A model generated the notes under the pieces. That model made no database searches. It was given only the letters and a program-made list of their open reading frames with translations, and was not told where the DNA came from. A stretch of DNA of 64,000 bases from Microcella indica. GTDB lineage: Bacteria; Actinomycetota; Actinomycetes; Actinomycetales; Microbacteriaceae. The stretch is taken from positions 434,001 through 498,000 of the forward strand of contig NZ_CP058670.1 of the NCBI RefSeq assembly GCF_013414345.1, given 5' to 3'. Below, piece by piece: positions 686 to 28,434 of this stretch (its first letter is position 1; every line of letters starts with the position of its first letter). Position numbers and translations under genes: made by a program.

Positions 686-2095
686 GGTCAAGTCCCTGGA
701 AGTGGTGTAACGGCTGATCCTTCGCTTTATGCGCTGAGCGCGATGAAGGTGTCGGCGACCACCTCGCTTTCGGTGTCGGGCAGGACGCGCATGCGGGAGC
801 GGGCCAGAACGTCCAGCCCGAGGTAGCGGCGCCCCTCGGCCCACTCGTCGGTCTGCTCGGCCAGGACGCCGCCGACCAGGCGGATGATCGCATCGCGGTT
901 GGGGAAGATGCCGACGGAGTCGGTGCGGCGGCGGATCTCGCGGTTGAGGCGCTCGTTGGGATTGTTCGACCAGATTTGGGACCACACGTCTTTGGGGAAC
1001 TCGGTGAAGGCCAGGATGTCGGCCCTGGCGGTATCGAGGTGCTCGGCGACCGCGGGCAGCTTCTCGGTCACGTAATCCAGGGTGCGGTCGAACTGGGCGT
1101 GCACGTCGGAGGCGGTGGGCTGGTCATAAACGGAGTGCAGCATCGCCTTCACTGCCGGCCACATGCTCTTCGGGCTCACGCTCATCAGGTTCGCCGCGTA
1201 GTGGGTGCGGCAACGCTGCCAGGTCGCGCCGGGCAGGTTCGCGGCAATCGCGTCCTTCAAACCGGCATGCGCGTCACTGGTGACCAGCTGCACGCCGGTG
1301 AGGCCGCGGGCGACGAGGTCTGCGAAGAACGCATTCCACGCCGACCCGGTCTCAGCTGTCGCGGTTTGCAGGCCGAGCACTTCGCGGCGGCCGTCCCCGT
1401 TGACGCCAGTGGCGATCAGCACGACCGTGTTCACCACCCGGCCACCCTCACGAACCTTCATCGTCAGAGCGTCGGCGGCGACGAACGTGAACGGGCCCGC
1501 CTCAGCCAAAGAGCGGTGCCGGAACTGGTTCACGTGCTCGTCGAGCTCGGCAGCCATCCGGGACACCTGCGACTTCGACAGGGCGTGAATGCCGAGGGTC
1601 TTCACCAGCTTGTCCATCCGCCGCGTGCTGACGCCTGCGAGGTAGCAGTCGGCGATCACGGTGATCAAGGCCGCCTCGGAGCGCTTGCGACGCTCCAGAA
1701 GCCACTCCGGGAATTACGTGCCCGATCGCAGTTTCGGGATCGCGACATCGATCGTGCCAGCCCTGGTGTCGAGATCGCGGTGGCGGTAGCCGTTGCGGTG
1801 AGTGAGGCGGTCAGGGGACGGCTGTCCCCATTCGGCGCCGACCACGGCGTCGGCGTCGGCGGACAGGAGGGCGTTGATCATGGTTTGCAGCAGGTGTCGC
1901 ATCAAATCCGGGGAAGCGTCGGCAAGGGCTTCACCGAGCACCGTTGCAGGGTCGACAATGTGGGGAGCGGTCATCGTGTTGATGCCTTTCGAGAGGGTTG
2001 TAGGAGATTCCTCGAAGGATCACACGGTGACCGCGTTCACGTCAGCAACGACGTGCGCGACCACCGTGGGTTACACCACTATGCGGGACTCCACT
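686..2095 (-). mobile_element. IS256-family insertion sequence, copy 1
   Basis: About 1.41 kb, with imperfect terminal inverted repeats that share AAGTGGTGTAAC-like inner parts (left end 686-711; right end complement of 2070-2095). It carries one transposase frame on the minus strand. Sequence agreement with copy 2 begins near GGTCAAGTCCC and ends at ...GGGACTCCACT, which defines the boundaries. No flanking target duplication is visible for this copy alone, consistent with it being the outer arm of a composite unit or with a later rearrangement. Confidence 0.8.
727..1974 (-). pseudogene. IS256-family (Mutator-type) transposase with an internal TAA
   Basis: The frame starts with ATG at 1974 (MTAPHIVDP) and is in register to the stop at 727, about 415 codons, the usual IS256 transposase length. 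A single in-frame TAA at 1714-1716 interrupts it after codon 86, between KLRSGT and FPEWLLERR, where relatives usually carry Tyr (one-base change from TAC). The downstream part keeps the DDE residues: Asp in AADALT, Asp in TSDAHAG and Glu in NNPNERLNRE. Translation restarting at the ATG at 1668 would lack the N-terminal DNA-binding part. Copy 2 has the same stop, so the lesion predates the duplication. Confidence 0.8.
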
Positions 2096-24599: not shown

Positions 24600-24647
24600 C
24601 CACAAGATGTTGGGTGCCGATCCGACGCGGCACCCGATATATAGTGA
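24600..24647. promoter_or_regulatory. Tandem NrdR boxes with overlapping promoter
   Basis: Box 1 CCACAAGATGTTGGGT (24600-24615) and box 2 ACCCGATATATAGTGA (24632-24647) match the NrdR consensus ACACWATATATWGTGT at about 12 and 13 of 16 positions. Their starts are 32 bp apart, close to three helical turns, the spacing known for NrdR pairs. TATAGT at 24640-24645 inside box 2 can serve as -10, so NrdR-ATP/dATP binding would block initiation of the nrd operon. Confidence 0.8.
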
Positions 24648-24766: not shown

Positions 24767-27253
24767 GTGAGCATCACCGTTGTCAAGCGCGATGGAAGCC
24801 GAGAGGCGTACGACGCCAACAAGATCAACCTCGCCATCGAGCACGCCGCCCAGGGCCTCGACGACAACATCACGTGGGTGACGCAGATCGCGAGCGAGCT
24901 CGAGCTCACCCTCTTCGACGGCATCACGACGCAGCAGCTCGACGAGGCCGTCATCCAGGTCGCTCTGCAGAACGTGAAGGACGACCCGGCGTTCGACACC
25001 GTCGCCGCGCGCCTCCTGCTCAAGACGATCTACAAGCGCGTGCTCGGCGACTACGAGAATGCGGCCGAGCTGCGCGACCTGCACCGCGAGCACTTCGCCG
25101 CGTACATTCAGCGCGGCGTGAGCGAGAACCTGCTCGACTCCCGCTTCCCCGACGCCTTCGACCTCGAGGCGCTCGCTGCTGCGCTCGACCCTTCGCACGA
25201 CGACCTGCTCAAGTACATCGGCGTCGTGACCCTCAACAACCGCTACGGCATCAAGGCGCGCAACGGTCAGCCCCTCGAGACCCCGCAGTACTTCTGGATG
25301 CGCGTGGCCATGGGCCTCTCGCTCAACGAGGCCGACCCCACGAGCCACGCCATCGCCTTCTACAAGAAGATGTCGGCGCTCGAGTACCTCGCCGCGGGCT
25401 CCACGCTCGTCAACGCCGGCACGAGCTACCCGCAGCTCTCGAACTGCTTCGTCATGGAGATGCAGGACGACATCGAGCACATCGCCAAGAGCGTGCGCGA
25501 CGTCATGTGGCTCACGAAGGGCACCGGCGGCATCGGCCTCTCCGTGACCAAGCTTCGTGCGCAGGGCTCGCCCATCCGCTCCAACAACACGACCTCCACC
25601 GGGCCGATCCCGTTCATGCACACGATCGACTCGGTGCTGCGCGCGGTCAGCCGCGGCGGCAAGAAGTTCGGCGCCCTCTGCTTCTACATGGAGAACTGGC
25701 ACATGGACTTCCCGGAGTTCCTCGACCTGCGCCAGAACTCCGGCGACCCCTACCGCCGCACCCGCACCGCCAACACGGCCGTCTGGATCAGCGACGAGTT
25801 CATGAAGCGCGTGCAGAACGACGAGGACTGGTACCTCTTCGACCCGCTCGAGGTGAGCGACCTCAACGAGCTCTACGGCAAGGCCTTCTCCGCCCGCTAC
25901 GCCGAGTACGTGGCGATGGCCGAGCGTGGCGAGCTGAACATGTTCAAGAAGATCGGCGCGCGCGAGCAGTTCAAGCAGATCCTCATCTCGCTGCAGTCCT
26001 CCAGCCACCCGTGGCTCACGTGGAAGGACACGATCAACAACCGCGCGATCAACAACAACACGGGCACGATCCACCTCTCGAACCTGTGCACCGAGATCTG
26101 CCTGCCGCAGGACCGCGACAACATCTCGGTCTGCAACCTCGCCTCGATCAACCTCAGCCGCCACCTCGTGGATGGCCGGCTCGACTTCGCGAAGATCGCC
26201 GAGAGCGCGCGGCTCGCGGTGCGCCAGCTCGACAACCTCATCGACATCACCGTGTCGAGCGTCGACGAGGCCGACCACGCCAACACGACCAACCGCGCGA
26301 TCGGTCTGGGCGTCATGGGCTTCACCGATGTCGTCGAGAAGCTCGGCTACTCCTACGACTCGGAGGAGTCCTTCGACCTCATCGACGAGATCATGGAGCA
26401 CGTCTCTTACGCGGCGATCGACGAGTCGGCCGAGCTCGCGAAGGAGCGCGGCTCCTACGACAACTTCGCCGGCTCGCGCTGGTCGCAGGGCATCGTGCCG
26501 ATCGACACGATCGACCTCACCGAGGCCGATCGCGGCCTCGAGATGCAGGTCAACCGCACGACGCGACTCGACTGGGACGCGCTGCGCGAGAAGGTCAAGG
26601 GCGGCATGCGCAATGCGACCCTCATGGCCATCGCCCCGACCGCATCCATCGGCCTCGTCGCCGGCACGACGCCGGGACTCGACCCGCAGTTCTCGCAGAT
26701 CTTCAGCCGCTCCACGAGCTCGGGCAAGTTCCTCGAGGTCAACCGCAACCTCGTCGAGGCGCTGCGCGAGCGCGGGCTGTGGGAGTCGGTGCGCGAGTCG
26801 ATCCTGCGCAGCCAGGGCGACATCCAGGGCATCAGCGCGATCCCCGACGACGTCAAGGCCACCTACAAGACGAGCTTCCAGCTCTCGCCGTACGCCTTCC
26901 TCGAGGTCGCGGCGCGCGCCCAGAAGTGGATCGACCAGGCCATCAGCCGCAACATGTACCTCGAGACGCGCGACGTCGACGAGATGGTCGACATCTACAC
27001 GGCCGCCTGGAAGAGGGGCGTCAAGACGACCTACTACCTGCACATGAAGCCGCGCCACACGGCCGAGCAGTCGACCGTCAAGGTCAACAAGTCTGAGACC
27101 GTCGGCGGCGACGGCTCGAGCACGCGGCGCAAGGGCTTCGGCGCGGCGTCCTCCGGCTCCGCCGCCCCGGCGAGCACCGAGGCGGAGACCGTCGGTGCGT
27201 CCGCACCGAAGCGGGGCTTCGGCTTCGGCGGCGCCAGCAAGGCGGCAGAGTGA
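24767..27253 (+). CDS. nrdA: Ribonucleoside-diphosphate reductase alpha subunit, lacking its redox tail
   Basis: GTG 24767 after GAGGGAG gives 828 residues. An N-terminal ATP-cone (residues 1-90, SITVVKRDGSREAYD) for allosteric control is followed by the barrel, with active-site Cys in LSNCFV near 226 and VCNLAS near 455 and the radical Cys in NLCTEICLP near 440, with Glu two residues on. The C-terminus ends GFGFGGASKAAE and has no C-x-x-C pair, which the family needs to re-reduce the active site. The missing motif appears in the next, overlapping ORF. The protein makes deoxynucleotides with NrdB. It is controlled by NrdR boxes upstream. Confidence 0.93.
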   Translation: MSITVVKRDGSREAYDANKINLAIEHAAQGLDDNITWVTQIASELELTLFDGITTQQLDEAVIQVALQNVKDDPAFDTVAARLLLKTIYKRVLGDYENAAELRDLHREHFAAYIQRGVSENLLDSRFPDAFDLEALAAALDPSHDDLLKYIGVVTLNNRYGIKARNGQPLETPQYFWMRVAMGLSLNEADPTSHAIAFYKKMSALEYLAAGSTLVNAGTSYPQLSNCFVMEMQDDIEHIAKSVRDVMWLTKGTGGIGLSVTKLRAQGSPIRSNNTTSTGPIPFMHTIDSVLRAVSRGGKKFGALCFYMENWHMDFPEFLDLRQNSGDPYRRTRTANTAVWISDEFMKRVQNDEDWYLFDPLEVSDLNELYGKAFSARYAEYVAMAERGELNMFKKIGAREQFKQILISLQSSSHPWLTWKDTINNRAINNNTGTIHLSNLCTEICLPQDRDNISVCNLASINLSRHLVDGRLDFAKIAESARLAVRQLDNLIDITVSSVDEADHANTTNRAIGLGVMGFTDVVEKLGYSYDSEESFDLIDEIMEHVSYAAIDESAELAKERGSYDNFAGSRWSQGIVPIDTIDLTEADRGLEMQVNRTTRLDWDALREKVKGGMRNATLMAIAPTASIGLVAGTTPGLDPQFSQIFSRSTSSGKFLEVNRNLVEALRERGLWESVRESILRSQGDIQGISAIPDDVKATYKTSFQLSPYAFLEVAARAQKWIDQAISRNMYLETRDVDEMVDIYTAAWKRGVKTTYYLHMKPRHTAEQSTVKVNKSETVGGDGSSTRRKGFGAASSGSAAPASTEAETVGASAPKRGFGFGGASKAAE

Positions 27254-27354
27254 TGCGCCGCGACCCCCAGGCTTCCGGAGGGACGACGGGCGAGGTGGAC
27301 TACCTCGTGCCGGTCGACCCGATGGACGAGTTGCACTGCGAGAGCTGCCAGTAG
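27253..27354 (+). CDS. 33-residue ORF carrying the RNR redox tail (CESCQ)
   Basis: ATG 27253 overlaps the nrdA stop (TGATG) in the -1 frame and encodes 33 residues ending VDPMDELHCESCQ, with Cys 29 and Cys 32. A C-terminal CxxC of this kind is the swinging thioredoxin-reducible arm of class I alpha subunits. Three explanations remain: a separately made peptide by termination-reinitiation, a -1 frameshift extending NrdA, or an indel in the sequence. Split RNR alpha chains are known (NrdJa/NrdJb), though with a much longer second part. Confidence 0.65.
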   Translation: MRRDPQASGGTTGEVDYLVPVDPMDELHCESCQ

Positions 27355-27450: not shown

Positions 27451-28434
27451 ATGGGCATTCTCGGCACCGGCATTCAGGAGGGCTTGCTGCTCAAGCCCGT
27501 CACCTACAAGTGGGCGATGGAGCTGTACGACCAGGCGGTCGCCAACACGTGGTTCCCCAACGAGGTTCAGCTCGGCGAAGACATCGCCGACTTCAAGAAG
27601 ATGACCGATGAGGAGCGCCACGCGATCACGTTCCTCATGAGCTACTTCAACCCGAACGAGCTGCTCGTCAACAAGGCGCTCGCGTTCGGCGTCTACCCCT
27701 ACATCAACGCTCCCGAGGCGCACCTCTACCTCGCGAAGCAGATGTGGGAAGAAGCGAACCACTGCATGAGCTTCGAGTACGTGCTCGAGACCTTCCCGAT
27801 CGACCGCGCGGCCGCCTACGACTCGCACGTGAGCGTGCCGTCGATGGCGCGCAAGGAAGAGTTCGAGGTCAAGTTCATCCGCCGCATGACGGAAGACACG
27901 CTCGACATCACGACGACCGAGGGCAAGCAGGACTTCATCCGCAACCTGGTCGCCTACAACGTGATCCTCGAGGGCATCTGGTTCTACAGCGGCTTCATGG
28001 TCGCCCTGTCGTTCCGCCAGCGCAATCTGCTGCGCAACTTCGGGTCGCTCGTCGACTGGATCGTGCGCGACGAGAGCCTGCACCTCAAGTTCGGCATCAA
28101 CCTCATCCTCACCGTGCTCGAAGAGAATGAAGACCTGCAGACGGAGGAGTTCGCGAACGAGATCCGTCAGATGATCCTCGACGCTGTCGAGATGGAGGAG
28201 CAGTACAACCACGACCTCCTCCCGGGCGGCATCCTCGGCCTCAACGCGAACTACATCAACCAGTACGTGAAGTACTTGGCCGACCGTCGCCTCGAGGAGC
28301 TCGGCTTCGAGACCGAGTACAACGTCACCAACCCGGCGAAGTGGATGGCGACGGCGAACGACACGCTGCAGCTCGTCAACTTCTTCGAGTCGACGAACAC
28401 GTCGTACGAAGTCAACGCGAAGACCTCGGCATAG
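27451..28434 (+). CDS. nrdB: Ribonucleotide reductase beta subunit, class Ic-like (Tyr radical site is Phe)
   Basis: 327 residues. Metal ligands read from the sequence are Glu70 (NPNELLV), Glu101 and His104 (WEEANH), Glu174 (ILEGIW), Glu208 and His211 (DESLH). The residue four after His104, where the tyrosyl radical sits in classic R2, is Phe108 (HCMSF). This, together with Glu rather than Asp as the first ligand, is the pattern of class Ic enzymes such as that of Chlamydia trachomatis, which use a Mn/Fe centre in place of a Tyr radical. It lies 96 bp after the CESCQ ORF, in the same operon as nrdA. Confidence 0.93.
   Translation: MGILGTGIQEGLLLKPVTYKWAMELYDQAVANTWFPNEVQLGEDIADFKKMTDEERHAITFLMSYFNPNELLVNKALAFGVYPYINAPEAHLYLAKQMWEEANHCMSFEYVLETFPIDRAAAYDSHVSVPSMARKEEFEVKFIRRMTEDTLDITTTEGKQDFIRNLVAYNVILEGIWFYSGFMVALSFRQRNLLRNFGSLVDWIVRDESLHLKFGINLILTVLEENEDLQTEEFANEIRQMILDAVEMEEQYNHDLLPGGILGLNANYINQYVKYLADRRLEELGFETEYNVTNPAKWMATANDTLQLVNFFESTNTSYEVNAKTSA

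Follow-up and report, generated by a model that had tools for sequence, protein, structure and literature searches.

A split class I ribonucleotide reductase in Microbacteriaceae with a putative free peptide as its redox arm

We analysed a stretch of 64,000 nucleotides from Microcella indica (assembly GCF_013414345.1, contig NZ_CP058670.1, positions 434,001 to 498,000 of the forward strand), which we call the window and whose first letter is position 1. It carries nrdA, the gene for the catalytic subunit of a class I ribonucleotide reductase (RNR), and directly behind it a mini open reading frame (ORF) whose product ends in CESCQ. The C-terminal arm with its redox cysteines is a textbook part of the RNR catalytic chain; here the chain ends without it. 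This split arrangement is biology and not an indel. We put the probability at roughly 85% that a gene fission freed the redox arm of a class I (Ic-type) RNR as a separate peptide that acts in trans and was spread by mobile elements. The features of the locus are:

24767 (GTG) to 27253 (TGA at 27251-27253), plus strand: nrdA, class I RNR catalytic subunit, 828 aa; NF005101 at 1638 bits
27209 to 27232, plus strand: KRGFGFGG motif at the NrdA C-terminus, conserved in alignment A2, candidate docking segment
27253 to 27354, plus strand: mini-ORF, putative free redox-tail peptide of 33 aa ending in CESCQ; its ATG overlaps the NrdA stop (TGATG)
27451 to 28434, plus strand: nrdB, radical-generating subunit, class Ic type as judged by sequence, with Phe at the radical-Tyr position

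The nrdA locus of the window

NrdA scores over the cut-offs of PF03477, PF00317 and PF02867 (ATP cone, all-alpha and barrel domains) as well as that of NF005101, and its C-terminus reads PKRGFGFGGASKAAE. The C-terminal redox Cys pair that defines a canonical NrdA is absent from this chain, as a first-pass annotation of the sequence had noticed: the protein has cysteines at 227, 305, 441, 445 and 456 only and nothing after 456. C227, C441 and C456 are invariant in the NrdA alignments A2 and A3, and we assume for them the active-site roles of E. coli C225, C439 and C462. No Cys follows that of the VCNL motif in 24 of 24 NrdAs in A2 and in 34 of 36 in A3, the remaining two having a single extra Cys at position 523. 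NrdA is the sole PF02867 match of the genome (a single contig of 2.585 Mb, 100% estimated completeness), and a search of this genome for NrdD returned no match. The NrdA end also contains an Ala/Pro-rich linker between KGFG and RGFGFGG (27120-27232), conserved despite the loss of the Cys pair. Linker and RGFGFGG together are a possible docking site; to name the KRGFGFGG segment itself as the place where the peptide docks is a guess.

The mini-ORF starts with the ATG at 27253-27255, one base of which overlaps the nrdA stop, and lies in the -1 frame relative to nrdA. Translation gave the 33-residue product MRRDPQASGGTTGEVDYLVPVDPMDELHCESCQ, just as the first-pass annotation had described it. Scans of the peptide against NCBIfam, Pfam and PHROGs returned no match, and its best named match is in Microcella pacifica (90% over 31 residues, with records of the own genome possibly excluded). 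A thioredoxin fold is far larger than 33 aa, and the peptide does not have one. Its homology to fused NrdA tails is strong evidence, as far as sequence can tell, that the mini-ORF encodes the thioredoxin-reducible arm that NrdA lacks.

For the NrdB chain the best matches in the PDB were 1syy and 4d8f, which we take to be Chlamydia class Ic subunits. Its Phe is aligned to Phe (F127) at the radical position, and by this comparison NrdB appears to be of class Ic type.

Conservation, reading frames and origin of the split

We searched 199 genomes of the family with NrdA and found a strong match (>600 bits) in 91 of them. The 30 best loci were fetched; they come from 17 genera and include the locus of the window. 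In 30/30 an NrdA without Cys pair is followed by a short ORF ending in C-x-S-CQ, and an alignment of 29 of the peptides shows an invariant Y-x-VP-x-DPMD-x-L-x-C-x-SCQ. A sequencing or assembly indel in what is truly a gene of one frame would be the simplest prior for a single genome, and the first-pass annotation had listed it and proposed aligning Microbacteriaceae relatives. None of the 30 loci has a continuous frame through the tail, and the linked copies described below differ in NrdA stop codon and use all three frames. The comparative data thus refute an indel, to which we assign next to no probability.

Together with later family loci and loci of named genomes, the 30 best loci yielded 86 non-redundant linked copies, for which we required the motif P-x-D-[PS]-M-[DE]-x-L-x-C-x-x-CQ-stop. 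Their peptides are 21-57 aa long (25-33 aa in 58/86) and start with ATG in 74 and with GTG in 12 cases. Relative to NrdA, 74 of the copies lie in the -1 frame, 8 in frame 0 and 4 in the +1 frame. The mini-ORF start and the end of nrdA overlap by 1 nt in 41/86 and by 4 nt in 19/86. These frames bear on a second option of the first-pass annotation, a -1 frameshift product. Programmed -1 frameshifting would then fuse the CESCQ tail to some of the NrdA chains, and the mini-ORF would be simply the shifted NrdA end. The predominance of the -1 frame speaks for it, as does the window, where this frame runs open over the 154 nt that precede the NrdA stop. However, the overlaps of 1 or 4 nt found in 60/86 copies yield a -1 frame by themselves, the relation of the frames is not constant (12 copies in frames 0 and +1), and in 15 of the 74 copies of the -1 type a stop codon no more than 12 nt away from that of NrdA closes the frame. 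Moreover, there are stand-alone copies, one of them in the genome of the window, and four genomes with unlinked copies only. Frameshifting is excluded as a general rule, and we consider it very unlikely. As all three frames occur and some -1 frames are closed, what stays constant is not the frame but the presence of a start codon close to the stop. The linked mini-ORF is probably a separate gene that is translationally coupled to nrdA. Of the three options in the first-pass annotation, the data favour the free redox peptide: the frames vary, unlinked copies exist and the split is conserved across the family.

Purifying selection acts on the peptide motif. Across the 16 codons at the end of the gene the ratio of nonsynonymous to synonymous polymorphism (pN/pS) was 0.235 for the linked copies (81 distinct sequences) and 0.140 for the stand-alone copies (22 distinct), while the same linked DNA read in the shifted frames gave 2.9 and 3.6.

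A peptide match was present in 94/199 family genomes and 42 of the 85 sampled genera. It was found in 91/91 genomes with split-type NrdA compared to only 3/108 of the others (G113, G172 and G141). The match in G141 (L054, ~1498-1548, minus strand) is a relic of 16 aa, SCPVDSMDELNCDSCQ, in a family genome without split-type NrdA. At least two matches were observed in 82 of the 94 genomes, with a maximum of six, and a single one in 12. By position four of these 12 have the linked copy only (G012, G104, G156, G162). In another four (G053, G138, G177, G015) nrdB comes next after nrdA, the stretch between them holds no CxxC ORF, and the sole peptide match is unlinked. It lies ~33 kb away from nrdA in G015, on a contig other than that of nrdA in G053 and G177, and on the nrdA contig but at a great distance in G138. 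Among the remaining single-match genomes nrdA is cut by a contig end in G101 and G183, G172 has no NrdA in the assembly and G141 holds the relic. The NrdAs of the four unlinked-only genomes also lack the Cys pair, and there is one PF02867 protein each in G053, G177 and G015 and two in G138. The assemblies comprise 20 contigs at 100% completeness for G053, one contig for G138, one contig of 0.93 Mb for G015 and an 88% complete genome for G177. Judging by these sequences, the RNR of G015 and G053 could only work with a peptide from a distant gene, unless an undetected donor replaces the arm.

Outside the family the arm is fused. When the peptide profile was run against 297 genomes of the order, 24 matched: the window's own, the relic in G141 and 22 from other families. 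All 22 other-family matches form the end of a frame of 869-1108 aa, read ..CPVDPMERLQCESCQ, ..VDGVACPVDPMERLQCESCQ or similar, and have NrdA core motifs no more than 1.2 kb upstream, many after a long linker. At the level of the phylum, 32 of 296 genomes matched the NrdA profile at 1e-100; 29 of the 31 loci other than our own were readable (L057-L085), and all 29 carry the fused C-terminal Cys pair. We computed an NrdA tree from 38 core rows. Of the 23 fused loci intended for it 4 are represented, and of the 10 distant fused ones 9, the others being short of core sequence. All split, unlinked-only and phage-split NrdAs group in a single clade (100/100). The four fused NrdAs closest to this clade are placed outside it, and the distant fused ones further out. 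Long branches are flagged for L203, L306 and others, and the exact place of those is unsure. The topology fits a single gene fission. RGFG-type motifs also occur in fused NrdA relatives and, by this sequence comparison, such motifs before the tail predate the split.

Stand-alone, phage and plasmid copies

The genome of the window holds a second copy of the peptide gene, and its promoter resembles that of nrdA. The relevant features are:

C1:2298004-2298087, minus strand: stand-alone peptide gene (L055), 27 aa, product MDNDNDTVGGYDVPVDPMDMLQCDSCQ, unlinked to nrdA
24600 to 24615, plus strand: NrdR-like box 1 of the nrdA promoter, CCACAAGATGTTGGGT, with limits set from a consensus we presume
24632 to 24647, plus strand: NrdR-like box 2 of the nrdA promoter, ..TATATAGTG.., after a 16-bp spacer

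The stand-alone gene has a Shine-Dalgarno sequence (AGAGGAGG) upstream and a hairpin downstream (z -4.7). For both promoters we assumed the same NrdR box consensus. Both genes show the two-box layout, with spacers counted by hand as 16 bp for nrdA and 17 bp for the stand-alone gene. A scan of all 2.585 Mb for the pattern CACNANATNTNG-N22-28-TATATAGTG returned two places and no more, one before each of these two genes, and the reversed-pattern control had 0 matches. NrdR itself is encoded in the genome (over cut-off). According to PMC12051234, published NrdR box spacers measure 14-17 or 24-27 bp. In terms of sequence, both genes belong to a predicted NrdR regulon, with NrdR encoded and two 16-bp boxes at a spacing of 14-17 bp. 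A box-2-type site was also found upstream of nrdA in 27 of the 29 readable loci, our own included; it is absent from L005 and L023, and L013 was unreadable.

Across bacteria we compiled 140 deduplicated places of the peptide, including the 22 fused tails and the linked copy of the window. Of these, 38 do not adjoin NrdA, and 26 of the 38 have TATATAGT upstream in a closely similar promoter. For the unlinked copies without the box we compared ten neighbouring proteins with PHROGs: five had no match, and the other five gave unknown-function, sigma, weak terminase/FtsK and tape-measure/endolysin-like matches down to 6e-22. Among ten (mostly the same) neighbours compared with Pfam, SSB, DprA and sigma domains were over the cut-off, one match was weak and six proteins had none. 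It is possible that these box-less copies reside on mobile elements. One genome, G041, has four unlinked copies on two contigs (L309, L310). They form converging pairs that flank large genes; of the large proteins that we scanned, three were without match and one matched PHROGs of unknown function.

In IMG/VR 370 stretches match the patterns and 230 encode relatives of the peptide; the reversed-peptide control gave 9 pattern matches, none of which was confirmed. We followed up the best 80 of the 230, and in 79 of these CxxCQ is directly followed by a stop codon, which the search did not require. NrdA is present on only one of 83 viral loci (L203), at locus lengths of up to ~14 kb. Scans of 20 viral neighbours detected terminase, portal, major head protein, endolysin, HNH endonuclease and exonuclease matches, with none for some of them, and this variety indicates that the peptide gene sits in several different phage neighbourhoods. 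On the viral contig L203 (6055-9550) the free peptide lies just upstream of a phage NrdA that also lacks the terminal Cys pair and whose two NrdA-like parts are separated by an insert about as large as an intein. Isolated phages with a copy are the Clavibacter phages CMP1 (MGDGEYTVPQDPMDEFQCDSCQ) and CN1A (MNNDNEYTVPIDPMDELICEGCQ) and the Pontimonas phage phiPsal1 (MSDPFDAIDRVDGIDVPIDPMDLLQCTSCQ). Their copies are located in or just behind the lysis region and are unannotated in all five records; the E-values are weak (0.1 to 4), and the case is made by motif, start and stop. Pseudanabaena phage Pan2 (ON968453.1, L331, 3501-3578) encodes MDDFDTIDGFACPNDPADLVSCESCQ in a frame other than that of the annotated coding sequence. 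The peptide of Pan2 has the older form, ACPxDP, and the recorded host of the phage is a cyanobacterium; the host assignment may be in doubt, or the free peptide may be more widely spread. A match in Gordonia phage Santhid (two records), with an E-value near 10 and inside the gene for a tail protein, we put down to chance.

In PLSDB 19 plasmid records match with E-values of 1 or below: 15 from Clavibacter, which are putative copies, 3 from Leifsonia and 1 from Gryllotalpicola. On the Leifsonia plasmid NZ_CP065038.1 (L334, 3983-4084) a 33-aa copy is annotated as ribonucleotide-diphosphate reductase subunit beta (WP_223361114.1), a name that looks like a misnomer.

In a rival reading the peptide could be a regulator or decoy, for example an inhibitor at the NrdA active site, with another donor reducing NrdA directly. 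Its small size, the NrdR-like control, and the plasmid copies and phage copies without NrdA in the stretches examined, which could serve a takeover, are in line with such a role. Yet both cysteines are retained, the peptide is homologous to the fused redox tail, and not one of the 91 genomes with split-type NrdA is without it. We judge a regulator or decoy to be unlikely. Alternatively, only the linked copy may serve RNR while the stand-alone and mobile copies were recruited to another thiol enzyme, and indeed the stand-alone copies have an N-terminal pattern of their own (such as MDNENDTVGGY). However, their motif is identical in kind, in the genome of the window the promoter layout is that of nrdA, and in four genomes whose NrdA lacks the Cys pair the stand-alone copy is the only one. 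Recruitment has, in our estimate, a slightly smaller chance still.

Proposed mechanism and relation to known systems

Under the reading we prefer, a redox arm freed by gene fission, NrdA retains the catalytic cysteines C227, C441 and C456, and after each turnover the CxxC of the free peptide would reduce the active-site disulfide of NrdA. The peptide would bind NrdA via the conserved Y-x-VP-x-DPM-D/E-x-L-Q/H segment and regain its reduced state from thioredoxin or a comparable donor. Start-stop coupling behind nrdA would yield the linked copy, and the stand-alone copy under NrdR-like control would add to the supply of peptide. Phages and plasmids would bring extra copies, and these may help the supply of deoxynucleoside triphosphates (dNTPs). 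We infer expression of the peptide, its binding to NrdA, thiol exchange, action in trans and a benefit to phages on two grounds, the well-established function of the C-terminal Cys pair in NrdA and the analogy to NrdJab of Pseudomonas aeruginosa. A bolder version, which we favour by a modest degree, sees a redox micro-protein that is diffusible and genetically mobile. It would be an electron carrier dedicated to one essential enzyme, perhaps the smallest of its kind, that would shuttle between thioredoxin and RNR, be dosed by NrdR via the stand-alone gene, travel on many unrelated phages and on plasmids as a short accessory gene and raise dNTP supply on the host NrdA.

Several points weigh against the freed arm. 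The argument is genomic, and a peptide of 27-33 aa is probably unstructured. We identified no binding site for it; the AlphaFold model built to look for docking, in which NrdA and tail formed one chain (L236, stop read as Q) with alignment A3 (41 rows), was poor, at a mean predicted local distance difference test score (pLDDT) of 46.7. The agreement among the 86 linked copies is partly by construction, since the motif demands most of the conserved residues. Peptide matches without split-type NrdA occur in G113 and G172, both fragmented assemblies, and in G141 as the relic. Among the unlinked-only genomes G138 has a second RNR large chain, and in G177, given its 88% completeness, a peptide copy may have been missed. 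Finally, the TATATAGT box is absent from 12 of the 38 unlinked copies.

The closest known system is the split class II RNR NrdJa/NrdJb of P. aeruginosa. As described in PMC4520616, its redox-active cysteines lie on the second polypeptide, which is required for full activity, and NrdJa and NrdJb are both essential in vivo under the conditions tested there. In both systems the redox C-terminal cysteines are on a separate chain and the catalytic chain is otherwise complete. However, NrdJab is a cobalamin-dependent class II enzyme and NrdJb a protein subunit, whereas the system of the window is a class I NrdA with NrdB and its second chain is little beyond the tail motif (21-57 aa in the 86 linked copies). 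Unlinked extra copies, a promoter pattern in common with nrdA, and phage and plasmid copies likewise set our system apart from NrdJab. The separate polypeptide homologous to a fused arm is shared; class II chemistry and cobalamin are not. By analogy the system may work like NrdJab, but it is not a member.

With the canonical fused class I NrdA (actinobacterial L050, L052, L053 and L057) the window shares homologous core and tail. In the fused enzymes the tail is covalently attached and a Cys precedes P-x-DPM, whereas here the tail is separate and the 29 aligned peptides have V at this position. Split RNR genes of phages, e.g. nrdA-a/nrdA-b of Aeh1, also distribute NrdA over two coding pieces and are mostly attributed to inteins, introns or homing endonucleases (PMC3653736). 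Compared with these cases, the cut in our system removes just the redox tail, is conserved family-wide and leaves a 1-base ORF overlap in the window.

The class Ic RNR of Chlamydia trachomatis (NrdB 1syy) resembles the system in that Phe replaces the radical Tyr; to our knowledge no split redox tail is known there. Our literature searches, which covered mainly open-access papers, found no report of an RNR redox tail split off in this way. Set against the known systems, an RNR whose redox arm has a micro-gene of its own, with further copies that are regulated or mobile, appears to be a new form. A clade with a free-peptide arm would be a natural separation of catalysis from re-reduction: the arm could be titrated, mutated or supplied in trans with the enzyme untouched. 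The copies on phages and plasmids also point to a kind of cargo gene that is too short for routine annotation.

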